From Trebouxia sp. TZW2008 (taxonomy: Eukaryota; Chlorophyta; Trebouxiophyceae; Trebouxiales; Trebouxiaceae), in assembly GCA_002118135.1 (NCBI GenBank), contig BDIU01000215.1, forward strand, positions 241,027 to 305,026: a DNA stretch of 64,000 nt, given 5' to 3'. The notes under the pieces are model-generated. The model saw nothing but the letters and a program-made list of their open reading frames with translations. It did no database searches and had not been told where the DNA came from. Position numbers and translations under genes: made by a program. Shown in pieces: positions 640 through 61,290 of the stretch (positions within the stretch are counted from its first letter, which is position 1; each line of letters starts with the position of its first letter).

Positions 640-3600
640 TCACCTCTGCTTTGAGCTTGCGTTTGAGGTCCTTACAGCTCTGCTTGTAGTAAAGCACATC
701 CTTGCTCAGCTGCTCCCGTTCTTCCTTGTACATCTTCAGCAGCTGGTGTAAATCAGGCCCGGCCTCGGCCTGACGTTCACCAGGACTCTGTGATCTTTGC
801 GCTGAGGTGTTAACATCTGAATGCAGCACAGGCCTTGAGTAATGTGAGATGATGCCGGCAAACACCTGTTACATCCTCAGGGTTTGCTAGACGTTGCTGT
901 GTGCATGCCTTATCTGATTTGTGCTGAGACATAAAGCTAGAGCTTTTGTTGTAAGGCAGATGCATGCTGCACGCTTTCGCTTGTCACAGTCCTCTGTGGA
1001 GACAAGCTTGTTGCAAACACAGCACAGGCAACGTATGGCATCCAAGGGCAAAGCCTTGGCTGATCATTGCTATCAATTGCAGCGAGTGGCGTGTGATGCC
1101 CAGAAAGAGTCTAAACAGCATGCCAAGCACGGCATAGAATCCAGCTAAGTTCAGAAGCTTTGGCATAAGCAAGCACAAGCACTACATAGAAATGCTGCTC
1201 TGCACCTCTGAGTCAAGTCACAGGACCATTGCAAATTATTGATGTATATGTTTTGCTGTGAGCACCAGACCTGACAATTGCAAGAGGCACAAGCATCACC
1301 TTGAAAGCCAGATTGCTGAGAGGTGGCAGCAGGCGCCACAGCTGTGGCCTGGTCCAGGATGGTGGCGACTCGAGAGGCATGCTCCTTCTGCAGGCTTGTG
1401 ACTCGGCGTTCAAACTCCATCTCCTTGAGCTTGAGTGTGGTCTCTGCCTGACTCATCTGCTGAGTGCGCTCGGCCAAAGCTGTCTCAAGCTCAGCTGCCT
1501 GTATTGCATGAGGTAAGCATAAGTCATCTCATCAGGAAACTGCAAGCTGCCTCCAAGTTCAAGAAGAGCATTTCATCAAAAAGATGGAGTTTACAGCTTG
1601 ACTTGTAGACTGGGCTCAGATTGCATCAAGCACAACTGTCTGATCACTAGGCCTGGTTTGCAGCAAATTGCACAGTTGCTGACTGCTTTCAGCAACAATA
1701 TTGCACATGGCATTTCATCTGCTGGCCATCCGCTTATCATGCGCAGTGATAACTGCATGTAGAGGCCCAACTGAGTCATGAACAGCACACTCCCATAAAC
1801 AAGCTTCAGCAATGCAGGCAGAATGTGCAAAATCTAGGAGTCAGAGATCCATGCACAGGACATAGTGAGAACAAAGGAGACAGCAATGAGGAAGAAGAAG
1901 ATGCATGCCTTGTGACTGGCTCGCCTTTCCTTGTCCTTCTCTGAAACCACACTAGTCACCATGTGCTTCAGCATAGCACGTGCCTCTTCTTCCTTAACAG
2001 CGTCTGACTGCTGTTGCAGCCGGGAGGCTGCTGCATCAGCTTCTGCGCACCTCTGCGCACACACACAATGTGATTTCAACTGCAACTTGTTTTTGGCAAG
2101 CTGTTGAGGAGCAGGATGGTTATAGCAGCTAGCTGATTGCGGTGCGATGTTCAAAAACACAGCTTTGAATGCACATTGGCCACTAGTGAAGACACTTCTG
2201 TCTTCAGTCACATGTTATGCCTCAGCTCTTTGACAAAAGCAGCTGATGTGCGCTGTAAGAAAGTAAATGGCGATTTTGTATGTGTGTTGTTGCTTGTAGT
2301 TCAGGTGTGAGCTTGGCTACCAGGATGAAGGCATAAGATGGTAAAGCACCAGCAGCAGCTAAGTGCACTGCCCGTATCTGCATGTGACATTGATGATGTT
2401 GGCAAAACCACACCTGCAACAAAAGCATGCAACTGCACGGCAACATCTTTCAGGCTTACCGCTTTACACTTGGCAATAGAAGAATCTATATATGACATCT
2501 GCGCCTCACAGGTGTCCACAGCATCATCCAGCGCTGCTGCCTGTCTCTGTACTTCTTCTTCCTGCTGACTCAGCTGCTGAGTTGCTGGATCACACCTGGC
2601 TGTTGCTCCTGACTCAGCCTGCTGATGTGACATCTGCACTTCCGCTTCTTGGACATTCCCAGAGCTGCACTGCACTGTGTCCTGCCCCTGTGCTTGCTGA
2701 GCAGTCTCAGTTTGAGGCTGAGTCACTGACTGAGACTTAGTGAGCTCTGAGGTGTGAGGCCGCTGAGCGACTCTGATGAGCTGGCTTCGCTGCAGCTTCT
2801 TGTCATCCCTCTCTGCATGCAGGGCTTCTCTCCTCTGCTGCAGGCAGGCCAGCTGCTTCTCAGCTTCCTTCTTGCTCAGCAGATGACTCACCTCCTTGTC
2901 AAGCATAGCCTGCAACAAAGCAATTCTTGAGTTGCACAATTAGACAGAGCAAGCTTCCAGACACAATCCTTATGCAAGCTTTTGCATTCATGGCCTCAAC
3001 TTTCGCTTTTGTGCACCGTACTGTTAATGGTGCTGTGGATCAACTTGTGAGCTTGTTTGTTATGTCATGGCAATGGCCTTAAGTGAGTGCATCTCATCCA
3101 GTGAGCAGTTGTACCCCTGAGAAAGTAGCAGACTTCATGTTGAATGCGTTAGCAAATTGTCATGGCCAAGAACCCTGAGCATGCAGCTTGAATATGCATT
3201 TGCATCTTCTGTCGGAAGCACCCTGTCACCAGCAGTGTCTTCAGTGTACGCAATGATACGGTACAAGCATATAGAGCATTGTTAGCATTGCAAATATGCC
3301 ATAAGCACTGACAGAGTCAACAACAAAGTTGAGGTGCATAGACACAAGGTGACATGTGATCACCTGAACATCTGCCAGGTGGTTTTGCCAACCCTTGGAC
3401 TCCTTCCTAGCAACCCTAGGAGCACCCGCCATAGCACCTGGGGATGTGACAACTTTGTCTGGCACACCGTTCTTCTTCGCTGAAGCAGGGGGTGTGGCAT
3501 TCTCCTGATCCTCCAACCCCAAGGGGGTCCCAGGGATGCTCATCCTGCTCTTCTTCCTCCCTGTACCAGGGGTCCTGTACCCAGTTGGGGTACTGGGGGG

Positions 3601-6600
3601 TCTGCCTTTGGATCCTCCTGGGGTGAGGCTGTTGCCATAGGCCTGGGCCTTTTCTCTGCCGCTTTCAGATTCCAGGGCTACATGATGCAGCCTCTTTTGG
3701 AGCACAGATGCCTCATCTGTCTTCCTCTGCAGCAGAGAAAAATCTTTGTCACTTCAATAGAAGCAGAACAAAATGTGTGCAACGGCACACAATTATTCCC
3801 GTGGTGTTTTGCGTTGACTGCACCCCCTCTGAAGCAACCACATTCTAAATTACTGCAGTAGAAATGTGTGTTGGGCAAACCATCAGCCTGTGAAGGTGAG
3901 TTCATCAAGATTTTGCGTCCAGGCTCATATAGTAAAGCCCCTTCTGAAGCCCTGAAGCTTTATCTGTCGTCCTCTGCAACCCAGGAGCAGTCTGTTGTCA
4001 TGACTACCATCAGAGATTGCTTTGCAGTTTGCTGACTGTCACAGTTGCTGTAGTCAAAAATTCCATTGACATTCCGTTTGTAGTGCTACTGCACTATCAT
4101 CAGCATAAGAAAAGGACGGGCACCTTGGCTGTGATGCGCAGGGTAGAGAGCTACCATACCTCAATAACCATGTGTTGCACATCATGCATGCAGTGTCAGC
4201 AAAAGAAACGGAGAGGAATTGCAGGAGAGCTTGACTATGGTGTCTCTGGATGAACAGCTTCTGTTTAAGGGTCTTCAGCAAAGACAGTTCATGGCATACA
4301 TATTTGCAACAGACAATAGTAGAGAAATGAAAAAAAGGCACCTTGGCTATGATGCGCTGGGTGGACAGCTCCTGCTCCAGGGCTTTCACCCGCCTGCGGT
4401 ACGCTTCCCCTGCTTTCTTTAGCTGCCCCACCTCCTGCTGGCGTGCGCTGGCCTCCCTCTCATAGGACTGCACAGACGGAATATGACATCAAATCATGTT
4501 TTTGGACAAGTGAGGCTTTGGTCCACAAGAAAGAAGAAGATGAAGCGGACCCTAGGGCAGTGCGACTTGCCCGCTTTCCTAAGCTGCCCCACCTCCTGCT
4601 GGCGTGCACTGGCCTCCCTCTCATATGACTGCAGGCAAAGCAGAATAAACAGACATGGCAAACACTGTGAGAAGAGAAAGAAGAACACATCAGGCTACAG
4701 GTTTGGAAAAAAAAAAACAGAGTGACTCTGCAGCGGTGCGCCTCGCCTGCTTTCCTGAGCTGCCCAACCTCTTGCTGCCGTAATTTGGCCTCTCTCTCAT
4801 ATGACTTCAACGAAGCAGAAGAACAGGTCAGGCTACAGTCTTGAAAGAGGAACAAGACAGGAAAACCATCCTACAAAGTGCTTCGCCTGATTTCCTTAAC
4901 TGCCCCACCTCCTTCTGCCGCGCGTTAGCTTCCCTTTCATAAGACTGCAGAAGAAGAAACTGAGATGAGAACGAAGAAGCAAGTTGAGATACAAAGCTCC
5001 CTTGTTGCTGCCTCAGATCTGCTTCTTCTTCAAAGACGTGTGTGACTCAAGAGAACAGTGAAGATTGATCCAGACCAGGCGTACCATGACATGTCAACAC
5101 AGAATAAGGCATCAACCATGACAAGTGATGGCAAATACAACTGACTGCAAGTACTTGATGCATGCCGTTCTTCAGCAACAACACTCTCGAGGGCATTGTC
5201 AAGCGTATGCGACACACTGTGCCCTGATTGTGAAACAAGGGCACAAAGAAACTAAACTTGCTTGTACAGGCTTTGCGCAATGCTGCAATGATGACATGAA
5301 ACACTCCTCGGCATTGGTCCTCATCTTCCTGCTGACTGAGTGTGAGATCAAAAGTTGTCTGCCCAAAGCGTGCTTGTCCCTATCAGACCTGTTCATGGGC
5401 AGTCTGTCTTGACATTGCACTGTGCACTATGACAGAGCAGAATTCACCTCAGCCTTGGTCATCATCTTCCTGTTGAGTGAGTATTGTCTGTTTCAGTCAT
5501 TGTTGTATTCATTGTAAACGTGGGCTAGGCAGGCTCAGCAGGCCTATCTAGGTATGTACAGAAGCAATCAACTGTCTCCAACCAGTTCGATCATGTGCTA
5601 ACCTAGACCATTTATATTGGACATGGACCGCGGAGAGGTCCTTGTACATAGTTGACTGCCAAGTATCTGTGGGTTGTCCCTTGGCCTGAGTGCCTGATAA
5701 CCGCCCAAACATACACTGACAAGGCAGTCTGTCCTGTGGCATACGTGCCATATGACCAAGCCATGTAAGCCTCCTAGGGGCAACAACCTGATCAAGGCTA
5801 GGTAGCTTGCAATTGTCTGTTTGACTGGCACGCGCTTGTCTTGAAAGCTGTCTGAGTTCTGGGCATCAAGTACAGCCTGTGCATTGTGAGCCGGTGATGA
5901 AGTAAGACGCACTCCGCGTTGGTCTTCATCTTTCTGTTGAGGGCAGGGCATCCTGATTTTGTTTGTTTGTCTGGCATGTTTCAAAAGCAGAATTTACTCA
6001 GGATCTTCAACACATGCAATGCACTGTGCTGTGATGATGAAGGAAGACATGCCTCGGCATTGGTCTTCATCTTCCTGTTGAGAGCGTCCTGCATGACCCT
6101 CATGCGCCCTAGCTCCTCTTCCAAACCTTTCATGCGATGCTTGCTTTGCACCCTCTCTTTCTGCAACCCAAGCAAACTTTGAAATGGAAAACATGTGCAC
6201 CCATTCCTTCTGCACCAGACTTGATGGATGTCAGACTGCACAAGCAGGGCCGCTGAGCACACAGCTCAATGGTTTTCTAGCTTCCTTCTGTGACCAAAGA
6301 CAATCACACAATTACACCCTGTGCTGAAACTCCAAGAGACAGGTACAAACCACTGAGCGGATTGCCTTGCACGCTATCTTGCTGCCTTCAAGCAATTATT
6401 GAGCTTGTCTGTGTTTTGCATGCCACTCATTGCATCCTCTTGTTGTGCATCAGAGCAAATTTCAAGAAGACAGGAGAATCACTGAGCTGCTTGATCTGCG
6501 CTCCTCAGTTCTGCAGTCAAGCAATATTAAAGACTGACTGAAGACATTTGCATGATAATTTTCTGCACCAAAGCAGAAGGGACATCGAGCAAAGTATCAA

Positions 6601-9600
6601 TCATGGAAATGCTTTGCGCCTCTTTCTGCAGTCATGCAAGCATTCAGGTTGAACAGGTTTGCACCCTGGCCATCTGCATAAGAAGCAGACATTCGAAGAA
6701 TGATGGGAAACCATTGAGCTGTTTGCAAATACAGTATTGCAACCTCAGGCTCACCTTAGCTGCTTCGCCATCCTTCAGCTGCTTCTGCAAATGCAGCATT
6801 TGTCTCTGCACAGCTTCAGCCTTCTCCTCAAACGCCGCCCGCATCTTCTTCTTCTCTTCTTCCGTCCGTGCCCTGTCTGAGTCAATGGTCCCCAACTCCG
6901 TCTTAAGTCTCTGTAACTCTTTTTCTTTGAGGGCCATGTGACCCTCCAGCTCTTGAAGCCGCTCCTGCAGAACAGAAAGTGACTGAAACAAGTTCAAAAT
7001 TTGTTTGGCTGAAGAAGAGCAAAACTTCTTTTGCTGCCTCACAGCCAAGGAAAGACATACAAGTCAATCTGTATACACTTAATTCTCTTTGTAACAACTG
7101 CTTTGGTTACCAAGAAATTTGAGATCAAACTATCCTTACTCAGTGGAACCACTGCAGTCAGAATGCAGTGTTTGGTTACCAATGGCGCTGTCCTTACACC
7201 GAGATTGTCCTTGAATCGAGTGTCCTTACAAAGAGAGTTGACTGTACTGTCTGAAGCACACTCAGCCAGACGTTGTACTTGACCACTCACCAGAAAGCGC
7301 AAGCATAAGAACCTATGCCAGACACCCAAGCTGCAGTGGCCATTCTTTGCTTGTGTTATGCATCGCCTAAGACACAGCTGGATTTGGGGTCATAGCATTT
7401 ACAACAGGGGAAAAGACACCATGATCATTGCGCCAGACAGCACTTCAGGCATGCTTACCAAGTACTGCTGTGAAAGCTGCTTGGCTTGAGAGTCATTTCT
7501 GTTGAGCGCTGCAATGAGGTCCTCCTTGTTGCGGATGTTGTACACGCATTCCCTTAGCTGCTTATCCAACGACTGCTGCTGTGCTGAGTAGTGCTGACTC
7601 TCCCGTAGCGCCTGTCACAAAATCAAACAAACTTTCAACAACAAGATAAAGCATCACGTGGTATTGTGCTGTCTGTTGTACATACACTCGCTCAGCATCA
7701 TGTCCAACAACTGCTGCTGCGCCGAGTAGTGCTGACTCTCTCGCAACACCTGTGACAGCATAGCAACAACCTTACTTATCAATTTCAGTGAATGCAAGAA
7801 AGCTCCTGGCGAGATTGTATGGCTGCAAATGCTATGCGCTGAGCATTTTACACACATGCCCTTCAGTGCTTGTCCTGTGACTGCTGCTGCGTTGGGTACT
7901 GCTGGCTTTCTTGCAAAGCCCAACACAACAACACAACAGCACAGTGCAAAGATCTGAGCTTGCTTCAGCAGGCATTTCAGAAGAATGGGCAACCAAGTAT
8001 GCTGTGCAGTGAACAGATAGCCACAAGTACATGTCTCAATGATGTATCTGATTCTCCAGTGCTTTGCAGCCCTTCTCAATGCAGCGATGCTCTGACAGCT
8101 GAATGACTGGATTAGACGATGAGTGCAAAAAACCAATCAGATTCCACACCAAAGCAATTAAGTATACAGAAGACGAAAGATGTAACTTGCATCAGGACAT
8201 CAAGAGTCATGCGACTGACTCTCCAGTGCTTTGCTGCTCTTCTCAGTCAGAGCAGCACATGCTCAAGGTTTAAATCTAGGCTGAAATCTCGATAAAATTG
8301 GTCATGCTGTATGACTGGGTGAGACATGAGAACGACAATGAAGAAGAACAGTCATGTACCTGACTCTCCAGTGCTTTGCGGCCCTTCTCGATACGGCGAT
8401 GCTCTGACAGCAGCTGCACATGCTCAGGGTTCCGGCCTGCCCTGGCCACTGAATCAGTCATGCTTGCGCCGGCAGAGTCGACCTGTAGCTACAGGCAGAC
8501 TTGAGTGGTTCTGCTGGACCCTCGCTGAGCTCAGCGAATGTGTGCAGCGTGTGGGGTGGCAGAAAACCTGTGTGCTGTGACTTATGCTTGTGGTGTTAGC
8601 CTTGCTGGAAAAGCTGCAGACGCTAGCCATTCCAATGCAGATGCGGCTCGATATTGAGCGGAGCCCACTGTTACACATTCAGCATGTGTACCTTCACGTT
8701 GTGTACAACAGCAATGGTGCTACTCGGCGTAGTGCCCGTGTTTGGCAGCATTCACAGCATAGCGACATAAGCAACAATGCTGTTTGGCAAGACCAGTGTC
8801 CTCGTGGTGCAGTGCAACGTCAGTCGCTAGCATGAGTATGTGGGGCATTCTGTTGTGTTTGGCTGTGATTCAGCAACAGTTTTGCATCAACTTTGCAGAG
8901 CAGAAAACAGCAAAAAGCATGTGCAATTCATGCAGTGCATGTGGATCAGTCCATGTAGCAACCAGACCAGATGCTTACCCATCATTCAGTCCTGTCCAGA
9001 CTTGCGGCACTGAACAGGACATGACGAGAAGAAATTTAGACTGTGTGCGGAGCAATCAGAGTGTACTATACTGCTTGCATGGTGATGACTGTATCAAATG
9101 CTCACCTCCCATGCACTGCTGCGTCCAGACGTGCTTGCAGAGCTGGGGCGGGTGAGTACCCCACCATATACCACCTGGTCCCCCTCCTCAACCCCCCTGG
9201 CCACCCCCAACACATCCAACCTCATGGCTTTCTGACTCCCTGCAACCACCCAATGCGTTGGTCACAACGTGTGGAAAACTCTGAACACCTTATGAGCTGT
9301 ATAGATCCTGGAGACATCATTTTGCAGAGCCAGAACTGATCCCGTGTAATTAATTTTGAGGCGTGTGTCAATGAGCATTTTCAAGTTCACTGAGTGACTA
9401 TGACAGCAGTTGCCTTTCATAAACTCTGGGGTTTTGTCATAGCCAGACTTTGACATGGTGATGGTTTACTCAGATGCTCAAGCATGCAGCAAGTCTTCTT
9501 TTTCAGGTAAGGTAAAGTCTTACCCCATCGGAACATGCTGCTGAGTCTTGTAGGCCTGATTGAGTCATCTTGAGTCTGACTCACAGCTGACGGGTCAGGT

Positions 9601-12600: not shown

Positions 12601-15600
12601 ATTGACAAGTCAGGTCCAGCATCACTGTCAGCGTCAGGTTTGGCTTATCAGATCAAGTGCATTTTACTGGTCACATTGTATATCAGTCTGAAGAGCACAG
12701 GAAGAAAAAGTTAAGTTGATGTGAGAAGGCAGTTTAGCGCTTGCCTCTGCCTTCAGAAACGTCCTTTAGAAGCCCCAAGATTTCAGGATCTGCAGCCCAA
12801 GGGCTCAAATCCCCAAACAGCAGGGCAGGGCTGAGGGCCATTCCTGGCTCTGCCAGCTGGCGCTGCACCAGCTTCATCTGCAGCTGCTGTAGCTCGTCCT
12901 GCAAAAGAAGAAGAGTAAGATAATGCTGTAACATTATCATGTATGATGCTGACCACAGACAACAGGTACAGGAACAGGACAGAAGCACAAAGGGGAACAG
13001 AACAAGGAAGATGAAGCGGAACAGAAAGAAATGCAGACAGCAGCAGCAGCACGCGACATGTGAAGCAAAGTAGCCAAGCCCAAGAGAAGAGTAACACACC
13101 TGCAGCGCTTGCATATGACCACCCCTGTCTCTGTTGATCTTGGGCTTGTTCTTGATATCCCTTGCGCGGTTGGCGTACTTGAGCGTGTTTAGTGACTCCT
13201 CTAGGTAGGTGTCAGCAGTTGTGACACAGGCAATCATCAGCGTCTTGCTGTTACCACCAAGTGAATCCTGCCACACAGCAAAGCAGGTCAACGCTCTGTA
13301 TGTGTGGCGTGGTAAGCTACAGCTTGACAAGTAGCCATGTAAAGGTTGCAACTGCTGCAAACAGATTTGACAGGGCTGCTTCTGGTATGTGCGCACTGCA
13401 ACGTTGTGCATGTATCCATTGCACTTCAGTGTTTGGTCAACTGACCAAGACAATCACAACAGGCACATCTGACTTGGTCTGACTCATATCAAAAGTAGCT
13501 GGAATTGATGTCAGAACTCTATAGTATTAATATTGTGTTCCTGTGCCATGCAGCCCACATGGTGAAGTGCCTTGATTGAGAAGTAACGGAATGCCATTGC
13601 CGAGACGATGCCTTCCGAGCAGGCCCAACAACAACAAAATTTGCTTTGTCTTCCATATTACAACATGTGTGGTGTGTGTGAAGCAAATACCTGAAGCAGG
13701 CGCGTAAGTTTGGAGTCTCTGTAGGGGATGTGGGAAGGGCGCTTCTTGGGGTCCCCCAGAGCTGAAATGACATTGCCCAAGGCCAACAGACCTGAGTTGA
13801 TGCCCACACTCTCCTTCAGCTGCTTCCCAGCAGCACCTACAAAAATAAAGCCAGAGAGTGAGATTGCGACTCTTCAACGCAGATATGGGTTGTGAGGTTC
13901 AGTGTCAGGTTGTGAACAAGATGACATTGCCCAGTGCCAAAAGGCCTGAATTGATGCCCATACTCTCCTTCAGCTGCTTGTCAGTAGCACCTGCAACATC
14001 ACAGCCATAATTTTACAGACATGAACAGATACTGCGGTGGCTGTGTGTTGTAGTCATGCAGTGGCGGTGACTGTGAGGTCCTGTGAAGGGTGAACACGCA
14101 ACGATGCCCAAAGTCTGCAGTTGATGCCCATGCTCTCTTTCAGCTTCTTCTCAGCACCACTTGCAGAAAATTGCTGAACTCTTCAAAGCAGGCATGAGTT
14201 GAATGATTGTGTTGACATTGCCGCAGTGCCAGTAGGCCAGAGTTAATGCCTACAGTTCCTGCACCTGCAACAATCTCAAAAAAAGTCTTGCTGAGATAAG
14301 GACAGGCTATGATCAAGTTGCGACAAGCATGCATGGCTCAGGCAATCAGGCATGATTTTATGGCTTAGGCCAGCAAGGAGCTGTTTTCTTGGCTTGTTCA
14401 CTGCCAGCAAGGTCGATCAGGGGGAATTTGGCTGTCAGGCAACTGCTGTGCAGGCCTTGCCCAGGCTGCTGCTCCAACACCAAGGCAAACTAGCATATTC
14501 AACACCTGTGCTTTCAGCAGGCAAAATCACAGACCTGTTGTCTTGGCTCTTCCACTGCCGGCTAGACCCACCAAATGGAACTTTGCAGTCAAGCAATCGC
14601 CATGCAGGCCTTGCAGAGGCTGCTGCTCCAGCACCAGCGTGATGTCATTGCCAACTTATGTGCATAAAGAGGTGGGGTTTGGACATGAACTTACGGTTGT
14701 GGCAATCAGGCATCTTTTCATGGCTCAGGCAAAGACAAACCTGTTTTCTTGGCTCGTTCGCTGCCAGCAAGGTCCACTAAATGGAATTTGGCTGTCAAGC
14801 AATCACCATGCAAGCCTTGAAGGGGCTGCTGCTCCAGAACTAGCGTGAAGATGGCATGTGACCTGCTGGACTGCTCATTCATCAGTGTACTGCCTGAAGA
14901 CAGACAGCAAATGGTCAACATTCTGACAAACGCAGGCATGCTGGTGGACTGCATGTTCCTGTTGTGCAGCGACAAGCAAAGGTCCAAGGTCAAGATCGCA
15001 TGCAACCTGCTGACTGCTCATGCATCAATGTGCTTCCTGCAAGTAGCAGAGTAGGCAAGCGCCAATGAATGCAAACAAAGGTCATGCGTGGCTGTTGCGT
15101 CAGCTGCGGTGCTTGTCAATTGGTTTCCTCATGGCGCTTTGCTCAACGACATGGCACATACATGACTGCTGACAGGGTCATGCCATGTCAGTAACAAGCG
15201 TCAAGTCGCGATGGCAATCAGATGGTGATGACAATGGTGATGATGAGATCATGGGAATTACCAGTAGATCTGGACAGTGATCCGATCTCGAGCAGTCTAA
15301 TCGCCTCTTGATATGACTCAGCTGGCTCATCTTTGGCTCCAGCCACAATAATCTGGCCATCAGATGCCTCCCTGATAGCAATGCTCTGCATGCAAGGCGG
15401 ATGCAGTCAGTTTTGCGCTTTTCACCCGGCGTGATTCAGTCAGCACAATTCAGTCAGCATGCTTTGGTCAGCACGATTCAGTCAGCATGCTTCAGTCTGT
15501 AACTCGTACTCAGCATGTTGCAGTCAGTGCATTTCTGTCAGTGCCTTTCAGTCAGCATGTTTTGGTCAGCATGATTCAGCCAGCATAATTCAGCCGGCAT

Positions 15601-26571: not shown

Positions 26572-26601
26572 AGATAAGTGCAGGATTGTAGCAACATGCA
26601 T

Positions 26602-26701
26602 GGAAAAAGAAAAGAGACGAACAGCTTACAGCATTAGGCGTCATAACGGGCGCCTCTTTTTATAGACGCAGCCCAAGATTGCTGCTTTCAAAGCAGCAAT
26701 C
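26602..26701 (-). mobile_element. Three-hairpin T-tailed repeat, copy 1
   Basis: Homologous to copies at 36790-36878 and 48418-48508. Read on the minus strand it opens with the perfect hairpin ATTGCTGCTTTGAAAGCAGC followed by AAT, then GGGCTGCGTCT...AGAGGCGCCC, then TGACGCCTAATG, and ends in a TCTCTTTTCTTTTTCC tract. It lies in the 3' UTR region 30 bp after the phosphatase stop codon. It is the most diverged copy, and I could not find its target-site duplication. Confidence 0.7.
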
Positions 26702-47300: not shown

Positions 47301-49749
47301 GTCGACTGCTACACTCTTAAGCCTCTGGTACTCACCCCTGGCTTCTTAAACTTGACTACCATTCACATTGAGCATTTGCTTGGTCTGGGGCTTTTGTGCT
47401 GTGACTGCAGACCTGTTGACTGCTACACTCATGAGCCTTTGGTGTTCACTCCTGGTTTCATCAACTCCACAAACTTTCGAATCAGTCTTGACCTGTATTG
47501 CCATTGTCATCATCAATAAGGTTATGGGTCAAGTTTTGCCCATGCGTCACTTGTCTGCACAGTAGTAAAAAATGCTTTGGTGTCTGCAGGCCTGTGGATT
47601 GCTACACTCATGAGCCTTTGGTATTCACCCCTGGTTTCATCAACTCCACCATCTACAACAACCAAGTCGAGACGGGATGGACCTTTGCCCCCTACTTCCT
47701 ACATGCTGCCGACTTCTGGCGACCAGGTATGTCAAGATCCTTGTGTTTCACTACAATTTGTTGTTTGATATAGAACTGTGCTCTGGACTGCAGCCCTCTC
47801 AAAGCTGTAGCTGATCATTGCTAATACGCATTTGAAGACTGCACAGTTTCTGCATGCTGTCAACTTCTGACAGTCAGATGCTGGCCAGTCATTTGTATCA
47901 AATTCGTAATTGTGGACAAGGTCTCCATCCATTACCATTAAAGAATTGTGGATTGAATCGACCCTTGACTTCCTGCATGCTGCTGACTTCTGGCGCCCAG
48001 GTATGTCAAGTAGCCAAAGCATGAGGGGCATAATGTTCGGCCTGTAGCACGTATGCTGTTCTGTACTTTTTGCCAAGTATACTCAGACCAGAGCACCACT
48101 TCATTGGAGGCTGGATGGACCTTTGCGCCTTACTTCTGCATGCTACTGAGTTCTTGCAGCCGGGTGTGTCCATCTTCTCACTTCTTGCGCAAGAAAAGCC
48201 TGCTGACAGCTTTCATCGGACAGACGTGACCTGTCGAAATACTGCATACAGACCAAATTGGGACACAGGACCGACCTCAGTCAAACAAGCATATCCGCTG
48301 CTGCTGCTGCTGCTCAGTAAAAATAAGCTGCTGTGTCTCGTTCCTGCTTGCATTCTTAGCTCCTCATGTTATGGGCTGAAAAGCACGGCAGGTGACCAGC
48401 AACCACATGCAGTCATTTGTTGCTTTGAAGGCAGCAATCCCGGGCTGCCTCTTTAGACAGAGGCTCCCGCTATGACGCCTAACGGCGTAGACTTTTCTTT
48501 TCTTTTCTTGCAGTCATTGCTGAGCCTTCTCATTCAGGCTGTGGGATCTTTGATCCTTTCTAAGCATAGAGTGTTCTGTCAGCTACTTTGTGGAAATGCT
48601 GCAAGTGAAGAGCTTTGTGCCACTGGTTCAAGGCGATTTAGACAGCAGGCAGGGCACTTCAGTTTGCAAACTAGTGCACAACGGCATTCAATACGGCAAT
48701 AATGCTGCTGCTGGCTATTTGAAAGCCAATCGAGCAAACTGCACAAAGTTTCAGTTTGAGGGTATGTGTCAGTCAGGCAGGCAATGCGTGCTTCAACAAA
48801 GAAGCAAATGTTGCAAAGCATTGCGACCTGGTGCTGACACAGCGGGCGCGTACTGTTATCAGCGTTGGCCCCAGGTTGTCAACGCTTTGTGACATTTGCA
48901 TCTTGCATCAAGACTGTACCTCCCTGCCTGATTGTCATTGCCCGTTTTGATGGCTTTTCAAGTGAGATTCGCCATGTACAAGCCAGCCAAAGCTGTCTGG
49001 TTGCATATCGGTCGTGTCAGGGTCTGTACAACCCATCTTTGCCTACAGCTGTTGGCATCTGGAGGCAGCAAGGTTGAGGTTGTCATGTCCGGTCAGAAAT
49101 GTGTGGCTGCATTTAGGTCATTTCAGGGTTTACCAACCCATATTTATCCGCAGGTGCTGGTGTTGGTGGCAGCAACGCCACCTGTGTCAATGTGGCCACC
49201 AAGGTTAGATATGGTGGAATGTAGGTCATGTCAGAGTTTCCTGACCCATATTTGCTTGCAGGCGCTGGAGTTGGCGGCAGCAACGCTACCTGCGTAAACG
49301 TGGCCACCAAGGTTAGCTATGGCCAAACTGGTTCTGGCGGTGGTGGTTTGGGCTTCACCGCAGTTAATGGCACAGATGCAGGTTACCAACCATTTGCCGG
49401 CAAAACCACCCTGGACTTCTGGGTTAAGTCCAACAGCACTGGCCCTGGTGACGAGAGCGAAGCGGGTTTTCCTAAGGGTTCAGTTCCTGACCTAAATGTG
49501 TACCTAGGAAACGCTGAGAGCAGTGTTTACTGCGGACAGTCTTTGCAGTTGACCAGTCAAACGCCTGTTGGCACACAAGCAACAGCCAATGGTGGAACAT
49601 ATTACCACTACCAGATCCCATTTGCCAGCTTCAACTGTGCTGGAGGTTCTGCTGGCAGTCTGGCCAACATTGACAGTGTTGGCTTTGGCAGCAACAGCAA
49701 TGCAGACTATGCCTCTTTCTGCATTGATGATTTGGTGCTTGTGTCCTGA
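44302..49749 (+). CDS. Expansin-like secreted protein (double-psi beta-barrel with HFD motif)
   Basis: Seven exons with continuous phase encode 507 residues: 44302-44498, 44998-45168, 45773-45986, 46550-46674, 47590-47726, 48570-48761, 49262-49749. MLQRVAILLLAVGFAAAQ is a signal peptide. The family is shown by GRSTFFDG near residue 45, the Cys pattern GSCEYA, GSCGRCYEIRCQNG and VHIIDSCPAYQ, and above all the active-site HFDLSYYAF (HFD motif of expansins), followed by YGVMMVDFRPVDCY. Plant expansins are about 250 residues. Here long inserts (DDFYYLATVNDTVPDD..) and a different C-terminus replace the usual pollen-allergen domain: GAGVGGSNATC, a Gly-rich segment and TTLDFWVKSNS, ending with FCIDDLVLVS, suggesting a beta-sandwich that might bind carbohydrate. 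Many N-glycosylation sites are present. The likely role is non-hydrolytic loosening of the algal wall. Confidence 0.88.
44690..45412 (+). repeat. Edge fossils of expansin-like exon 2
   Basis: Before exon 2, copies at about 44695-44730 and 44821-44955 repeat its start (RGAGAFGD.LY.SCEYA). After it, 45345-45410 repeats its end (PGSCGRCYEI), where the donor has become ATGAGC. Confidence 0.85.
46020..47105 (+). repeat. Donor-side fossils of expansin-like exons 3 and 4
   Basis: 46060-46105 repeats the HIIDSCPAYQ end of exon 3 with a GTACGT donor. Copies ending near 46828, 46980 and 47098 repeat the end of exon 4 (AFELLAHPTYGVMMVDF plus donor). The first two are almost identical to the exon. Confidence 0.88.
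47295..48170 (+). repeat. Edge fossils on both sides of expansin-like exon 5
   Basis: Before exon 5, copies at about 47297-47365 and 47409-47475 repeat CTGCAG plus its start (VDCYT.EPLVFTPGFINST). After it, copies at about 47825-47875, 47955-48002 and 48100-48165 repeat its end (GWTFAPYF.HA.DFWRP plus donor). Confidence 0.88.
48418..48508 (+). mobile_element. Three-hairpin T-tailed repeat, copy 3 (best full-length)
   Basis: A 91-bp element flanked by a perfect 10-bp duplication, TGCAGTCATT, at 48408-48417 and 48509-48518. It contains an imperfect first hairpin (TTGCTTTGAAGGCAGCAA), a strong second one (GGGCTGCCTCT, loop TTAGAC, AGAGGCTCCC) and a third (ACGCC, loop TAAC or similar, GGCGT). 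It ends in TTTTCTTTTCTTTTCT. It lies in an expansin-like gene intron, on the gene's strand. Confidence 0.9.
49045..49215 (+). repeat. Acceptor-side fossils of the last expansin-like exon
   Basis: Copies at about 49045-49085 and 49152-49205 repeat GCAG plus GCTGG.GTTGG.GGCAGCAACGC upstream of the functional exon at 49262. The nearer copy is nearly identical through NATCVNVATK. Confidence 0.85.
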
Positions 49750-52084: not shown

Positions 52085-52205
52085 CTTCTGGGTTGTTTGC
52101 ACTTCAACATCAGTCTTCTCTACCGTGACGCTCAAAATCAGCGTGCCTGGCAAGACAAGACTTGTGCCACACACACCTAGCACCTCTGTTAGAACGTGTA
52201 ATCAA
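52085..52205 (+). mobile_element. Dispersed repeat family B, copy 2
   Basis: The plus strand reads NISLLYRDAQNQRAWQDKT then a stop, matching the minus-strand copies at 37495-37610 and 55250-55350 ([11 protein letters not shown]). It is a truncated fragment without a catalytic domain. Confidence 0.6.
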
Positions 52206-52220
52206 ATGTGATTGTCATCA

Positions 52221-53784: not shown

Positions 53785-54262
53785 CGGGACGCTGCCCGGT
53801 GCCAGTCGTGAACGGCTGTCAACGATGCGCAGATGAGTCGGTCATCTTCCGGTGCCACGATGCACAGACAGCCTAAAATTACTCTGTACGACACAGCGCA
53901 AGGCCATTTGGCCGCTCCGAGGACATCGAGGACACGGACTGTCGTTACGCCCTCCGGTTTTCCGTCGTTCCGTAAGGTTTACTGCTGAAGAAGTAGACTC
54001 ATGACTCAAGAGACACTTCAAGTTGCCGAGCTGCATTGCAAGCTATAAACGGGTCGTATCAGGCAGGAAGTCCTACGACATTGCTTGTCTATGGCAATGT
54101 GAGGTCAGTGAGGGACGCCCTCGCGAGTCTGTAGCCGCGTGCTGCAATTTTGAAGTGGGCGACGCGTCGATCGCAGCTCAGCACATGTCGATACACCTCG
54201 TCTAGCCCCGGAGAAGCGGCAAATTGGGTTGGAGTAATAGTACTGCGCTTTCAGACGGACAA
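53785..54262. promoter_or_regulatory. Divergent promoter region between GT31 and histone deacetylase genes
   Basis: Only 478 bp separate the two head-to-head start codons, so promoters and 5' UTRs must overlap or abut. GC content is higher than in flanking introns. I see no specific motif I would name. Confidence 0.5.
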
Positions 54263-57200
54263 ATGGGCAAATCTCGCAAGGTATGAAGGGGGTGGCGTCG
54301 ACTGATACCTCAAGCACCCGCGCTCCTCGCTTACGTTGCGTGCAGGCCCACACCGCCGTTGCTCTCACCTGCGATTAGCATGCTTTGCTTAGTCAGACAA
54401 ACCTGTTATGTGAAGGCTGACCTCCCTCATGCCTTTGGTGCGACTGGCCTTGCAGGTAGCATACTTCTATGATCCCGACATCGGCAACTACCACTACAGC
54501 AACCAGCATCCGATGAAGCCTCATCGGATCAAAATGACGCATGCACTGATTTTGCACTACGGCCTCTACAACGATATGGAGGTGAGACCACATTCATGGG
54601 CAATTGCTTGCTTTCATGCATAGGTAGTTATGCATAACGGTAACACCATGTAAAGCAGTACATGCCAATGCCATGCAGCCAAAGATTTTGGCCATGAGAG
54701 GTACCAAAAATACATTCAGCACATTCCTGTTTGCAGTGTTTCAAGCCCCTCCCAGCTGAGAAAAGGGATTTGCTCAAGTTCCACGGTAGTGACTACCTGA
54801 ACTTTCTTCAGACTGTGACGACTGACAACCAGGCATGTCTGCAACACATAACCACGACCATGCCACCCTCTATTGCATGAGGGGCCTGTTATGAAGCTTG
54901 ATGGCGCAGACTTGTATGTGTTCATTTGCCCCAAGCATGCAATCTTACCAGGCATATCATGCATTGTACTTGTCTCCCTAAGCATGCAATCACACAAAGC
55001 AAAACATGCACTGTAGCCCTCTCCCTAAGCATGCAATCACATAAAGCAAAACATGCACTGTAACCCTCTCCCTAAGCATGTGATAATACCATGCAAAACA
55101 TGAACTGTAGCCCTCTCCCTAAGCATGTGATCATACCGTGTAAAACATGAACTGTAGCCCTCTCCCTAAGCATGCGATCATACCACGCAAATATGCATTG
55201 TAGGCCAACACAAAAGGCATCAGCAAGAAAGGCTGGTAATGATATTTATTGTCTTTGCACATTACAGCACATGTGCTAGGTGTGTGTGGGCCAAGTTCTG
55301 TCTCGCCAGGCAGGCTTGTTCTGAGCGTCTAAGTGGTAACCTAGCCTTGTCACAGCTCACTGGCCAAGTGCATTCTATCATCCTCTATGCAACATCAGGT
55401 GATCTGGATACAGCCATTGCACGTGTGTTATGTATGCCAGCCATGCATTTTGGGCACCGCTGAGACATCTTCATGACATTGTTTGCACAACGCTCCTGTG
55501 GGGCTCCTTAAGCATGATTGCAAACTGAGTATTGCTTTAACATTGGCTGTATAGCCTCTTGTCGGGTCTCACACACAGTATGTGTAATTGATGGATGCAT
55601 GGATTGATCAATCAACTGAGTACAATGACCATCCTTTGTCAGCATCTGGTTGCAGTCTTCTGTACGGCCTACAGGAACAGGGTGAGGCAGACCTGCTGCC
55701 TACCTTGCGTTTGCGCAGGCACAGGTGTCAAATTCATCAGTCAGTGTTTTGACGTGAGCATGCATTCCCTTCTTCAGGATCAGTTTGAAGACGAGATGCA
55801 GACCTTCCTGGGAGGCGAGGACTGCCCTGTGTTCAACAACTTGTACCAATATTGCCAGGTAATCAAATGTGTGTATTTGCCATATTACCATCAGGCCTGA
55901 AGGCAGCTCATGTGCCTTCCAGTTGCACAAGTCAACCGTGCTGATTGTCAAGACGTCTTCAAGCACATTGCATGCCCACAAGGAAGCCTTGCTATCTGCT
56001 GCAATGTGCAGACACTATGCCTTGCATCACATGTCTCACTGAAGCATTACATTAACGTCGAGCTCATGGACAGTCACGCTGCATTTTGATGACCACAGGA
56101 GAACCGTCAGAAGGGCATGTACAAGTCACACCTGGTGCTATGGCTGAATGCTTGTTCCATGCGTTCTGATTGACAGCTGTTGAATAACAACTTGTGGCTC
56201 TATCACAAAGCAAGACAGCACATTGGCGGTGACACTGTTATGTGATGACTGCAGAGATACGCAGGAGCGTCCACTGCAGCAGCAGTGAAGCTGAATCACA
56301 TGGCTAATGAAATAGTCGTCATTGTTTTGCCCTTGACTGCTTCTTTTGGGCTGTACTCACAAAGCAAGACAGAACAGGCAGTGATGATGTTCTGTGATGG
56401 CATGCAGAAGTATGCAGGAGCATCCATTGCAGGAGCAGTGAAGCTGAATCACATGGCCAATGAAATCGTGATCAACTGGTCTGGCGGCCTACATCATGCC
56501 AAAAAGTTTGAGGTACGTTGGCTCAACTGTGCACACCAAAAACTGAGTGCCCAGCTGCTATTCTGCTGCAGCCTTGAGTGCATTGCATATATGCTCATGC
56601 TGCTTGAGCATTGCCATGCCATCACAACTCGTGCAGAGATTCTTGTATTGTCTTGTATCAATCATGGCCAATGAAGTAGTGATGAACTGGTCTGGAGACC
56701 TACAGCATGCCAAAAAGTCTGAGGTGGGTTGGCAAGATCAAAAGACGTTCACCCATGGGCTTCTTGTTCTGCATGTGCTTGTGCTACTTGGGCATTGTGA
56801 TAAGAACCTGGCCCATGCACCAACATGTCATGCAACACATAGTAGCAACACTGCCCTGCTGCATGGGCAGGTCACAGATGTCTTGCAGTTGTTACAGCTG
56901 TAAAAGAGGATGCTCATAGAAAATGTTCAGCGTTCTGGGCTGTTTATATGACAGAGTTCACAAACATGCGTAGGCTGCAAGAAACCTGCTATGGAATGCA
57001 GGCGTCTGGCTTCTGCTATGTCAATGACATTGTTCTGGCCATCTTGGAGCTACTCAAGTATCACAACAGGGTGTTGTACGTGGACATTGACATACACCAT
57101 GGCGACGGGGTTGAAGAGGCCTTTCTTACCACCAACAGGGTCATGACGGTGTCTTTTCACAAGTATGGGGACAACTTCTTCCCTGGGACTGGTGACCTGG

Positions 57201-60200
57201 AAAGCATAGGCAAACAAGAGTAAGCTGTCCATCATCACATCCATCATATACACATTCTTAGTCATCATTCTGACACGCATCACCATATTCATCATCTATG
57301 TGAGGGCTTGTGAGGTTGCATGACCCAGATTGGACTGTCCAGAAGCAGTGAAGCACCTTGACATGATTTCATCTGGCTATCTTGTACCTATGCAGATCAA
57401 GTCTGATGCAAACTGCCAAGTGAAGTGTCTCTGCTAGCAAGCCTAGAGGGCACAACTTTCTGCTGCTGTGGACTCTTTGACAGAGCAGACTGCACTAATG
57501 ATGTGTGCTTTTCATGGCAGCAGTTTGCTGATGGCTGATCTAGCCCCACGCATGACATTGTGTAATGCAGCTGATTGCTTCTGAAGCTGCAAAGCAGGAG
57601 GCATGCAAGCAGGCTCACTGACGATGATGGCATTCGGTGAATGTCTTGAATTGCAGAAACCTGTATGGACCAGTGCTTATGGCGTAGTGCAGGGGCAAGT
57701 ACTACGCCATGAACGTGCCACTGAAGGATGGGATCGATGATGAATCCTATAAGTCCCTCTTCAAGCCTATCATGCAGAAGCTAATAGAAGTGTACATGCC
57801 CACAGCTGTGGTCTTTCAGAGTGGTATGTCATTCTTGTTTGCAAGCATGTCATAGTCGCTGCTTGATCGCATTTGCTGGGTCTACAATCTCAGAACGAAC
57901 AGCATCCAATCAAGCCAAGCATGCGTAGCCTGATCTGCCTCCCAATAGCTGTAGTCTTTCAGAGAGGTACGACATCATCATCAGCTGTTGCATGCATACA
58001 TGTCATGACTGCTGCTGGATTGTATGTAGCCATGAATGGTCCAATCAAGGACAAAACTGATGATGACTTGTACAAGTCCCTGTTGAAGCCTATCATGCAG
58101 AAACTGATTGGAATGTACATGCCCCTTGTCTGTTCTCAGCTGAGTACGTCATCCCTTTCTGGGTGTTTTGACAGATGACTTCATGAAGCAGCTGATGCCT
58201 ATTGTAAATACCTGATTAGGTCTTTAACAATTGTCTGCATCAAGACTGCGTGCTTTGGCACAGCGATTGCGACTCACACATAATAGCAGGTGCAGTTTCA
58301 ACACTGCCAGTCCTTGCTGCTGTTGATGACAGCCGATTGACACTATAGTCGAGCTTCTGGTGTTTCACCATAGATGAAATGTCTCTTCCTGACTTGATGC
58401 AGGGGCTGATTCATTGGCTGGCGATAAGCTGGGCGCCTTCAACTTGTCCATGAAAGGTCATGCTGAGTGCCTCAAGTTCGTACAGTCCTTCGGGCTGCCC
58501 ATGCTGGTTTTGGGGGGTGGGGGATACAGGATCAGCAATGTCTCCAGGTGTTGGGCCTACGAGACAGGCGTCATCCTTGGTAAGCATTCCCACATCTGTG
58601 GCCTTTGACTTGAGCTCACATGCATTCTGAGCTGTTGATTGTCTTTGAGCACATGATGTGTTCTGCCCTGAACTTGCACACAAGTTTGGGCTGCCCATGC
58701 TAGTGCTAGGGGGCGGGGGATATAGGATCAGCACTGTCGTCAGATGTTGGGCCTATGAGACAGGCGTCATCTTTGGTAAGCATTCACATGGCTGTTGCCT
58801 TTGTCTTGAGCTCACACACCTTATGAGCTGTCGATTGTCTCTGAGCACATGGTTGGTTCTGCCCTGAACTTCGACACAAATTTTGGCTGCCCATGCTTGT
58901 GCTAGGGGGCGCAGGATGCAGAATTGGCCTTGTCTACAGATGTTAAACCTATGAGCAGGCGTCATTCTTGGTAGATGCACACCAAGGCTGTCTTGAGCGC
59001 ATGCACTTGAACAAATCATGCTGCTGTGTCGAGGCAGTATATGGTGAGCGCCTGCGTGTCATGCACACTGTCATAACTAATTTGTGTGGCTGAACGTGAT
59101 GAGTGCCTTTCTGTCACGTAGACCCAAAATCGACAGTGCTGCCATCTGTACACCCATACACATCATCTGAAACAACAGTCCATGGCAACTATTTTGTCAT
59201 CACACAAACAGGAATATGGACTGCCACCGTATGCCTGCGCCACTGATCACTGCTCAAGCTTCACACGGGAAATATACATGCGCACAGGCAAACTCATGCT
59301 CAGTGACTCTTGTCATGCAGATAGAAGTTGACAATGAGCTGCCGCCGCATGCCCACACATCTTCAAGACAGGCGCTCATGGGTGTCTCAGTTTCCTGCAT
59401 GGAGGGAAGTACACCAGTCATGCACACAATAGCACAAAAACATTTTCTGATTGTCATGCAGACAGGGAATTTAACAATGAGTTGCCCAATCCTGCCTACA
59501 CCAGCAACTACGGCCCAGATTTCAGGCTGCACAGTGTAGTGCAAACAAGCAATGTGCGCACAAGCAACTTTTGTGATAGTGCACGACTCAACATTGTTGT
59601 CATGCAGATAGAGAAATGAACAATGAGCTGCTGCCTCACGCGTACATCATCTTCAGGGCAGGTTCTGATGGGTGTCTCAGTTGCATGCACAGAGGGAAGT
59701 GCGCAAGTCATGTTCACAATAGCACATCAATAGTGTCTGATTGTCATGCAGACAGGGAAACAGACAATGAGCTGCCACAACAGCTTTACACCACCAAATG
59801 TGCTGTCTTTGAGACAGTCAGCAGGGTGTCTGGTTCATACAGACATGCCTGTCCTTTCTCCATGGCATGCAGATAGGGAAATGGACAACGAGTTGCCGCC
59901 CCATGCCTACACAAACAACTACGGCCCAGATTTCAGGCTGCACATACCGGTCCGCACCGGCAAGGAGAATCTGAACTCCCCAGAGCGCATTGCCAAACTG
60001 AGGGAAGCTCTCCTGCAGAATATCAGCAGGTAAAGCTTGATGCATTTGTGCCGAAGTGTAAAAACCTAAGACCAGCAAGGAGACTGTCAACTCTCTAGAT
60101 CGTATTGCCAAAATCAGAGACACTCTCCTGCAAAATATCAGCAGGTACCTGAAATTCAGAGTAGTAGCAATGAGTGACAATTAACGAAGCCATCCCAATG

Positions 60201-61024
60201 TGTGACAGGATGTCCTGCAGAACATTGCTGGTAACAGCCTCAATGCAGCATTCTGCTGCAGAGCATGTTGCCAATCCAAGGAAAGATTTCTTGAAAATAT
60301 AGTCAGATGACAACTTCCTTGCAGTCATGCTAAACCAAGAAAAGCTCTCCTGCAGAATGTTAGCAGGTGTCAAGCACAATGCACCAAAGCATTACTCATG
60401 CTCACATGCCTCATTGCCAGGCCTTGACAGCCCCCGCTCAGCCCAGGGGGGATGACCCCAAAACCGCACAGGCACCTCACAGAAATTTGCCCCGATATCA
60501 ATTTATCACTAATGCAGCCCATGTAAATTGCTCTGCGACTCCTGCAAACTTGCACATGTAGTGTGAGCAATCCCCGGCCTTTCAGAGCCCCTGCCGACCC
60601 CTGGTCATTGCACCTCACTGCTGCTGCAGGAGTAGAGCTGCTCTGTTTTTATGAACACCATGAGCGTTGCATTGCTGATGCTGGTGCTTGAATAGCATTA
60701 CATGATATTCTCCAAGCAGTGACACAGAACTCTTCGTTCTGAGTATTGTCAAGAGCCATGACTCAAATGCAGTATTGTTGCAGGATGGAAGCTGCTCCCA
60801 GCGTTTCCTTTCATGAACGAGCGCCAGACCTCATGACTACCGATGACATACAAGATGGTAGGCTGGAAGCTGAAGAGTCCATGACTAAGACACATGGCAT
60901 GGCAAGGCAGCATCCCACAGAGACAAAGCATGTGGACCTTGTTGGTGTGAAGCCTGAACAAGAGGCAAAGCCGGATGTGCCGGTCAAAGTGGAGGGCGAA
61001 CGGCAGGCTGCTGTAGGTGAGTAA
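54263..61024 (+). CDS. Class I (RPD3/HDAC1-type) histone deacetylase
   Basis: Zn-dependent lysine deacetylase. Exons: 54263-54280 (MGKSRK only), 54456-54581, 54737-54832, 55778-55858, 56408-56512, 57002-57219, 57693-57823, 58403-58579, 59873-60029, 60784-61024. Phases agree throughout; about 449 residues with a stop just after a potential donor. Catalytic features are present: GGLHHAKK (charge-relay His pair), [14 protein letters not shown] and GADSLAGD (Zn ligands), [14 protein letters not shown] (transition-state Tyr). [20 protein letters not shown] near the N-terminus and [11 protein letters not shown] after the catalytic domain are also family features. Exon 3 uses a GC donor (CAG/GCATGT). 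The exon 10 donor GTGAGT could be used to add C-terminal exons from 61-63 kb, where edge copies continue. It acts in nuclear repressor complexes. Confidence 0.93.
54965..55200. repeat. ~59-bp tandem repeat in HDAC intron
   Basis: About four units containing CTCTCCCTAAGCATGC..TCA and AAAACATG.ACTGTA in the intron between exons 3 and 4. They are not related to the exons. Confidence 0.85.
55250..55350 (-). mobile_element. Dispersed repeat family B, copy 3
   Basis: Shares GCCTGCCTGGCGAGACAG and the surrounding ~90 bp with 37495-37610. Minus strand [18 protein letters not shown] then a stop. It is followed on that strand by GACAATAAATA, perhaps its 3' end. It lies in an HDAC intron. Confidence 0.6.
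56250..56723 (+). repeat. Edge fossils flanking HDAC exon 5
   Basis: 56255-56325 repeats the start of exon 5 ([19 protein letters not shown]) before it. 56662-56723 repeats its end ([20 protein letters not shown] plus donor) after it; there the catalytic LHH is replaced by LQH. Confidence 0.88.
58670..58975 (+). repeat. Donor-side fossils of HDAC exon 8 (two copies)
   Basis: 58682-58774 repeats [16 protein letters not shown] through the GTAAGC donor almost intact. 58877-58972 is a more decayed second copy (GGAGCRI, donor intact). Neither contains the Zn-binding GADSLAGD half, so they cannot act as alternative exons. Confidence 0.88.
59210..60370 (+). repeat. Edge fossils on both sides of HDAC exon 9
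   Basis: Before exon 9, five copies (about 59215, 59325, 59457, 59602, 59748) repeat CATGCAG plus the [11 protein letters not shown] start; the third extends through NYGPDFRLH. After it, about 60065-60145, 60208-60235 and 60335-60366 repeat its end (RIAK.R..LLQNISR plus donor). Confidence 0.9.
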
Positions 61025-61074
61025 AAGTCGATCCACTGCATAACAAGACTGTTAGTCTTGGCTGTTGAGTTTTG

Positions 61075-61290
61075 CTGAAGTCAAGCCTGAAGAGGAAAGG
61101 GCAAAGCAGAATTTGCCAATCAAGAGGGTAGGCTTTAGGCAGGCTGCTATAGGTGGGTAAAAGTTGTGTTACTCTGTAATCAAAGTATAAACGTTGGCTG
61201 TTGGGTCTTGCTATTACACAGTCTGAAAAGGAAGAGGCAAAGCAGGATCTGCCCAGCAAGATGAGAAGCGAAAGGCAGGCTGCAGCAGGT
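61075..61290 (+). repeat. Donor-side fossils of HDAC exon 10
   Basis: Two copies (about 61078-61152 and 61219-61287) repeat the E..AK..LP.K...RQAA.G end of exon 10, each followed by a GT donor-like site. Confidence 0.8.

Follow-up and report, generated by a model that had tools for sequence, protein, structure and literature searches.

Polar, decayed copies of exon edges in the introns of a Trebouxia genome

The window analysed here, the 64,000-nt end of a contig of Trebouxia sp. TZW2008 (C207:241027-305026), carries genes whose introns hold diverged copies of the edges of neighbouring exons. Its predicted proteins match the families Kinesin, PhoD, Acyltransferase, FMO-like, DPBB and Galactosyl_T, as well as HDAC1 and KIF7 in the PDB. 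The genome assembly comprises 68.5 Mb in 527 contigs, has a GC content near 49-50% and contains a RuBisCO small-subunit match; CCCTAAA repeats occur in three of the contigs, in one case at positions 7-96. Three comparison blocks, C23:100-200 kb (B1), C251:60-160 kb (B2) and C178:60-110 kb (B3), were taken from contigs picked as long enough with their content unseen beforehand, and together with the window they amount to the 314 kb to which all counts refer unless the window is named; the three comparison contigs also hold HDAC-family genes, which lie beyond the sampled parts.

A self-trained gene finder, for which earlier settings had been discarded on account of over-calling or gene merging, returned 34 genes with 501 introns and 535 exons (median exon 134 bp, median intron 339 bp), with models that carry the donor CAG/GTRAG and the acceptor TGCAG/G. 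It fuses neighbouring genes and takes some in-frame copies for exons, and 104 of the 535 exons, which resemble another called exon, were treated separately as ambiguous. Copies were detected by local self-alignment, in which a local match lies within 2 kb and detection fails below 70% identity; they were counted at 968 exon-sides beside an intron, from 512 exons of at least 30 nt. Gene models in B1-B3 were checked by eye alone. Those of the window were curated by removing or re-edging called exons that copied their neighbours, an editing that favours the polarity described below and that is backed by PDB alignments for kinesin and HDAC and by continuity alone for the other genes.

In the curated window, 63 matches between an exon and an adjacent intron were found. 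They fall at 36 separate junctions, 19 of them donors and 17 acceptors, in seven of eight gene models, which is close to the figure of about 30 junctions in six genes given in an earlier note on this DNA; motor and stalk of the kinesin, modelled apart, may belong to a single gene. Among these matches, 18 copies downstream of an exon contain its 3' edge plus the donor and 26 upstream copies contain the acceptor plus the 5' edge. The rest comprise two whole-exon copies, 16 internal ones nearest the expected edge, one nearest the other edge and none spanning the wrong edge. This polarity, which the note had called strict, was kept when introns were aligned with their flanking exons beyond the window, and copies were found in all four sampled blocks. 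In the unedited models, unambiguous exons have 39 downstream copies of the 3' edge, 37 upstream copies of the 5' edge, two whole copies, 32 inside the exon and none reversed, i.e. 76 right edges against 0. With ambiguous exons included, 43 and 50 copies carry the right edges, 5 are whole, 45 lie inside and 3 are reversed, all three at ambiguous exons.

Local matches are direct in 408 cases and inverted in 37, and a direct copy lies in the adjoining intron at 109 of the 968 exon-sides against an inverted one at 2; this excess excludes a chance origin of the exon-edge copies. The matches group into 174 clusters, of which 84 are exon-intron, 60 exon-exon and 29-30 intron-only, and the best offset is 90-199 bp in 124 of them; the clusters have a density of 4.8-6.9 per 10 kb and take up 16-28% of the sequence. 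Since the copies contain splice sites, mobile or introner-like elements inserted into introns could be envisaged as their source. Such elements are disfavoured to the point of being highly improbable, because only 32 distant direct matches stand against the 408 local ones in a comparison confined to within blocks; at a stricter cut-off in three blocks, 28 distant direct and 37 distant inverted matches stand against 284 local direct ones. The copies of the window, all placed by self-alignment, are the following (coordinates in the window, other evidence in brackets).

3936..3978, minus strand: acceptor-side copy before stalk exon 3364-3726
4119..4152, minus strand: donor-side copy after stalk exon 4342-4467 (an ambiguous exon)
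4740..4820, minus strand: whole-exon copy after predicted stalk exon 4909-4944
7674..7910, minus strand: two acceptor-side copies before stalk exon 7459-7611
8042..8244, minus strand: two donor-edge copies after stalk exon 8360-8482
13836..14740, minus strand: kinesin intron with both kinds of copy, in order the functional donor at 14740 (the first copy), two donor-edge copies (14518-14642, 14341-14476), two acceptor-edge copies (14119-14169, 13921-14007) and, as the last copy, the functional acceptor at 13835 (sequence read; joined exons align to KIF7)
14989..15039, minus strand: acceptor-side copy before kinesin exon 14741-14893
15961..16618, minus strand: donor-side copies after kinesin exon 16687-16862, one with stop codons
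16963..17045, minus strand: acceptor-edge copy before kinesin exon 16687-16862, 88% identity
20648..20812, plus strand: two donor-side copies after PhoD-like exon 20427-20602 (PhoD family match)
22809..22857, plus strand: donor-edge copy after PhoD-like exon 22599-22706
29731..29799, minus strand: donor-side copy after acyltransferase exon 29849-30041
30127..30200, minus strand: acceptor-edge copy before the same exon, 29849-30041
30580..30953, minus strand: acceptor-edge copies before acyltransferase exon 30368-30450, 184-bp period, best 93%
36326..36683, minus strand: contiguous acceptor-edge copies before FMO exon 36007-36253, 202-bp period (FMO family match)
37240..37349, minus strand: copy flanked by FMO exons 36971-37102 and 37361-37432; it matches the former at its acceptor edge and the latter in full
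38562..38680, minus strand: acceptor-edge copy before FMO exon 38292-38504
39492..39546, minus strand: acceptor-edge copy before an FMO exon with its presumed edge at about 39401
44687..44951, plus strand: acceptor-side copies before expansin-like exon 44998-45168
45266..45411, plus strand: donor-edge copies after expansin-like exon 44998-45168
46070..46101, plus strand: donor-side copy after expansin-like exon 45773-45986; 5/5 coding differences synonymous
46742..47097, plus strand: donor-side copies after expansin-like exon 46550-46674, 154-bp period, best 91%
47214..47470, plus strand: acceptor-edge copies before expansin-like exon 47590-47726
47968..48170, plus strand: donor-edge copies after expansin-like exon 47590-47726
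48994..49214, plus strand: acceptor-edge array of 106-108 bp before exon 49262-49749 (flank of a relative)
56196..56316, plus strand: acceptor-edge copy before HDAC exon 56408-56512
56663..56733, plus strand: donor-edge copy after HDAC exon 56408-56512
57947..58124, plus strand: copies after HDAC exon 57693-57823, of which 58029-58124 is the sole case in the window nearest the unexpected edge
58720..58973, plus strand: donor-edge copies after HDAC exon 58403-58579
59311..59776, plus strand: four acceptor-edge copies before HDAC exon 59873-60029 (single-copy join fits HDAC1)
60071..60368, plus strand: donor-side copies after HDAC exon 59873-60029
61072..61294, plus strand: donor-edge copies after predicted HDAC exon 60784-61016
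61396..61916, plus strand: acceptor-edge array, 111-bp period, before exon 62190-62347 (predicted only)
62438..62513, plus strand: donor-edge copy after predicted exon 62190-62347

Two of the acyltransferase copies at 30580..30953 were called in-frame exons by the gene finder, and the acyltransferase domain is found in the protein without them. The window also holds a tRNA gene (Rfam RF00005; 23449-23521, plus strand) inside the PhoD-like gene call, between predicted exons 23171-23341 and 23949-24068, and a GCACA pentanucleotide array of about 42 units at 39748-39956 in the FMO gene region. An in-frame minisatellite (25687-25997; 42-bp unit, 97%) lies in a Q/G-rich predicted protein, and a dispersed repeat of about 100-180 bp, 70-82% identical, occurs in both orientations at 7074-7247, 19825-19939 and 34229-34408.

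In the kinesin intron 13836-14740 the copies are ordered D d d a a A, and when the exons are spliced from the first donor to the last acceptor, the resulting motor domain can be aligned with KIF7 across DLAGSER and NVISALGDP, free of any insert at the join. Similarly, a single-copy join at HDAC exon 59873 aligns to HDAC1 without insert and leaves four extra edge copies inside the intron. The proposal that the functional donor is the first copy and the functional acceptor the last is thus in keeping with both structures. On contig C319, a paralogue of HDAC carries its own repeated copies in front of other exons, as read from coordinates. For exon 49262-49749, the closest relative is P0001 (94% identical), in which the 18 codons before the exon match the flank of the outer copy at 11/18 and that of the functional copy at 5/18. 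At this one locus the flank agrees with a lineage-specific tandem duplication, which predicts a match to the outer copy; P0001, seemingly without the duplication, already has intron-like sequence before the exon, again at one locus. The flanks of P0017, P0018 and P0019, compared in translation only as further ancestral-state loci, gave no clear answer. P0019, the relative of an exon in B1 (86% identical), lies on a 3.59-Mb contig from NCBI, and a related genome near chromosome level is hence public.

The splice dinucleotides of the copies are largely preserved, with GT intact in 27/39 donors and AG in 30/37 acceptors; GT was kept near the rate of neighbouring bases and AG somewhat above it. 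Because both are mostly intact, loss of the inner sites is not generally the reason why the outer site wins, and the splice score of the copy equals or exceeds that of the used site in 13/39 donors and 7/36 acceptors. As the used sites are those nearest each other across the exon, the choice would be made by exon definition rather than intron definition, in the sense given to these terms in a review (PMC3488318).

These observations are best explained by tandem duplications across exon-intron junctions, after which the outermost splice sites are kept and the other copy decays within the intron, a reading to which we assign a probability of roughly 0.7. Small head-to-tail duplications, mostly of 90-200 bp, would arise across the genome. 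Where one spans a junction, the protein would remain intact only via the copy continuous with the remaining exon, at a donor the first and at an acceptor the last. Its counterpart would then turn into intron and decay, as stops, frame-free offsets and codon-position divergence indicate for the set and as is presumed for single events. The functional exon would serve as a fixed reference and keep its edge copies recognisable, intron-only copies would fade because substitution and deletion act on either member of the pair, and repeated events could build up the series D d d a a A. At the DNA level, staggered breaks, fill-in and end-joining may be responsible.

A different fate is conceivable, namely that many copies were or are functional exon ends, be they alternative, mutually exclusive or missed exons, which coding selection kept and which died late. 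The offsets speak for free decay: they fall on the three frames as 53/66/59 in exon-intron and 31/28/34 in intron-intron pairs and are thus not multiples of three, while exon-exon pairs (75/33/29) favour the frame because the gene finder requires it. In 110 matches with unambiguous exons, 25 stops occur against 30 expected under free change (33/37, 42/46 and 38/48 in simulated copies), and exon-exon pairs have 14 against 39 expected, as called exons can hardly hold stops. Strong coding constraint on all copies is ruled out by these stops, within the bias of a test that favours broken copies since open ones are more readily called exons. Moreover, whole exons are covered in 5/146 matches (ambiguous exons included), and the domains of kinesin and HDAC would be broken up if further copies were included. 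The 18 contiguous copies diverge by 0.109 at 0-fold, 0.214 at 4-fold and 0.208 at intron sites, which is close to the 1:2:2 expected with one partner free and the other constrained.

Other measures lean towards coding and count against wholly free decay. A stop or gap codon breaks 26/74 best copies per exon-side, a number that in itself speaks for free decay but falls short of the 47/107 and 49/99 in simulation, and the 48/74 open copies have a ratio of nonsynonymous to synonymous differences per site (pN/pS) of 0.38. This ratio is 0.41 overall and 0.43 in contiguous copies, below the floor of 0.5 and the simulated 0.65-0.69. The quotient of 0-fold and 4-fold divergence (d0/d4) is 0.42 (0.36-0.49) over all 74 copies, again below the floor of 0.5 for a fully free copy, and 0.39 (0.31-0.48) in the 56 non-contiguous ones (0.115 at 0-fold, 0.294 at 4-fold sites). 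A nonsynonymous deficit reaches p<0.05 in 7/72 testable events, four of them at p<0.01, against 0/189 (96 + 93) in simulation; the copy of kinesin exon 14741-14893, for example, differs by 15 synonymous and 3 nonsynonymous changes. Similarity often stops just beyond the splice site, with a median of 14 bp of intron, and the preserved GT and AG, the latter somewhat better kept than its neighbours, would likewise suit exon ends. A minority of copies may hence have coded for part of their life; the deficit may alternatively stem from real exons missed by the models or from third-position mutation faster than modelled. Most copies look free of selection, with a slight nonsynonymous deficit remaining, and retention as exon ends appears distinctly unlikely as the account of many of them.

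The polarity, part of a pattern that according to the earlier note would, if genome-wide, be a distinct mechanism of intron growth, does not by itself demonstrate one. Simulated random tandem duplication with an intact protein gave 1049 right and 21 reversed of 1070 edge matches in four runs (98%), and 255 right and 22 reversed in three runs with heavy deletion (92%). Polarity therefore indicates tandem origin and calls for no separate mechanism. The observed 0/76 reversed fits the plain rate (p 0.22).

Several further results weigh against uniform tandem duplication followed by decay. Contiguous exon-intron clusters (alignment/offset of at least 0.8) number only 18/84, compared with 0.88-0.98 in the plain simulation, and 11/30 intron-only clusters are contiguous; the median alignment/offset coverage of exon-intron pairs is 0.57-0.58 in the real and 0.96-1.0 in the simulated sequence. 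Most exon copies are thus set off by a spacer that does not align. In the spacers, a weak collinear residual similarity has a mean z of 0.80 ± 0.24 (standard error) and a median of 0.13 (n=52), against 1.6-1.7 in simulated decayed spacers; some spacers are decayed homologues and some are unrecognisable. Intron-only pairs are about fourfold too few, 30 against 113 predicted from the exon-intron ages. By circular shift, exon-noncoding clusters number 84 against 60 expected and intron-intron clusters 29 against 57, and contiguous pairs stand at 18 exon-intron to 11 intron-only, compared with about 85 to 119 in simulation (p 0.046). Plain uniform duplication with small indels only, which predicts contiguous copies and about 4 times more intron-only pairs, was thus rejected as a full account.

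The same three imbalances would be expected if exon edges were preferred duplication sites, i.e. if the process were tied to exons or splice junctions by chromatin, breakage or transcription instead of being random. The offsets also lie near the sizes of an exon and of a nucleosome. Exons are, however, a durable reference that alone favours detection, and deletion turnover lifts the simulated ratio of exon-intron to intron-only pairs to 2.4-2.8 in the two strongest runs; such a preference is on balance unlikely.

How far deletion can go was explored in hand-tuned simulations with a mean deletion of about 30-50 bp. Four runs with 0.15-0.3 deletions per substitution and duplication stopped gave a ratio of 1.5-2.8 (real 2.8), a coverage of 0.47-0.72 (real 0.57), intron parts of 2-21 bp (real 14) and exon parts of 36-59 bp (real 61), as the sequence shrank by a quarter to a third. 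No single run fits all: 0.15 deletions per substitution yield a ratio of only 1.4-1.6, whereas 0.3 fit the ratio with exon parts that are too short, 36 instead of 61 bp. The shift test is off as well, with intron-only observed/expected values of 1.5-1.7 in these simulations against 0.23-0.53 in the real sequence, and 0/76 reversed copies would be improbable at the 8% of the heavy-deletion runs (p 0.002). Heavy intron deletion can thus repair much of the misfit, not all of it; the runs indicate what deletion can do, not that it did so.

For the junction-duplication model put forward in the earlier note, this means that tandem duplication across junctions, retention of the outermost sites and decay of most inner copies stand. 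Confinement to junctions does not, given 29-30 intron-only and 60 exon-exon clusters among 174, even though exon-overlapping duplications exceed the uniform prediction. As to the corollary that each event lengthens its intron, repeat-bearing introns are longer (median 475 against 310 bp), which is partly a detection effect; net growth does not follow, as strong deletion is also needed.

Young copies are scarce. Across the four blocks, 7/305 local matches reach at least 92.5% identity and most lie at 70-90%, the number falling from 56 at 82.5-85% to 11, 5 and 2 in the classes above 90%. A best match of at least 95% occurs in 0/84 exon-intron, 0/60 exon-exon and 2/30 intron-only clusters, compared with 33/141 exon-intron and 20/102 intron-only in a simulation with continuing birth. 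Steady birth and loss is ruled out as the cause of this gap, as counts would then have to fall with age; either duplication has slowed or the assembly collapsed young copies.

The gap, together with a copy size near short-read length and exon parts more alike than introns, would also suit an assembly artefact in which reads from another strain or haplotype ended up one after the other where contigs were joined. The 314 kb contain three two-N joins (L027 about 7738; L033 about 3205 and 3403). Two of the three are flanked left and right by an identical short sequence, and one of this pair lies within a tandem cluster; they are probably unmerged contig ends. Such joins with repeated ends point to short-read scaffolding, and exact repeats of up to 79 bp were nonetheless assembled. 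Three joins stand, however, against 174 repeat clusters, several arrays have three to five copies, and the copies hold stops and frame breaks. None of three exons searched for in the assembly has a second full copy; for one the search found just its local copy, and for another a partial paralogue at 80%. Misassembly is therefore an improbable source.

Taken together, junction-spanning tandem duplications are real and general in the sampled sequence, polar largely by necessity and mostly free of selection; they follow a known principle, at a scale at which intron growth and the choice of splice sites can be put to the test. A further and rather unlikely reading is that exon edges are preferred duplication sites in this lineage, or that selection temporarily retained their copies as alternative ends of exons. 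The introns would then consist largely of what were once exon edges, produced in a burst that is now slower, and the outermost pair would be read by exon definition even where inner sites are equally strong. If the preferred reading of duplication across junctions with retention of the outermost sites is true, the introns would hold a readable record of their lengthening, in which each fossil is an event, the copied edge its direction and the divergence its age. Used sites with equally strong inner sites beside them would also offer many natural tests of splice-site choice. In addition, the gene finder took several in-frame fossils for exons, and annotations of such genomes may do likewise.

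A literature search returned single cases and small sets and no genome-wide account, a weak negative as most subscription journals lay outside its reach; the Trebouxia A48 paper (PMC12712428) uses the word 'tandem' 0 times and 'intron' once in its main text. The copies belong with small tandem duplications in orientation and proximity (408 direct against 37 inverted local matches), a class described as abundant in genomes in PMC8355091. There, fill-in by CST/Pol alpha-primase and end joining at breaks with complementary overhangs likewise give small head-to-tail duplications, in mouse cells with 43-bp overhangs, whereas the breakpoints here are old. In the Rogers model, a duplicated exonic AGGT provides both sites of a new intron; here, edge copies bring an existing donor or acceptor with its own exon side (76/76 in unambiguous exons). 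Tandem duplication of whole exons with both splice sites, as for mutually exclusive exons, differs in that 5/146 matches are whole, and introner elements in that similar sequence would recur in introns of unrelated genes, against the local excess within blocks.

Further parallels are found in published cases. In a published single case of tandem duplication over an intron-exon boundary, an exonic segment likewise ended up in the intron and inherited splice signals were used, though this is one recent new intron and not a series of ordered, decayed copies at many junctions per sampled block. Genes in human segmental duplications (PMC2812944) likewise have boundary tandem units of comparable length, 62-126 bp in one set of intron changes, that alter introns. 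Those repeats are recent, differ from paralogue to paralogue, are often retained in an alternative transcript and account for 27 intron changes, whereas the copies here are old and diverged. Novel intron positions in Drosophila (PMC2891723) also involve coding tandem duplication with one copy lost into the intron; they use proto-splice sites inside exons, showed no duplication footprint and create new positions, in contrast to copies added within introns. The kind of event is already published as single cases or small sets, and here it is found in every sampled stretch.

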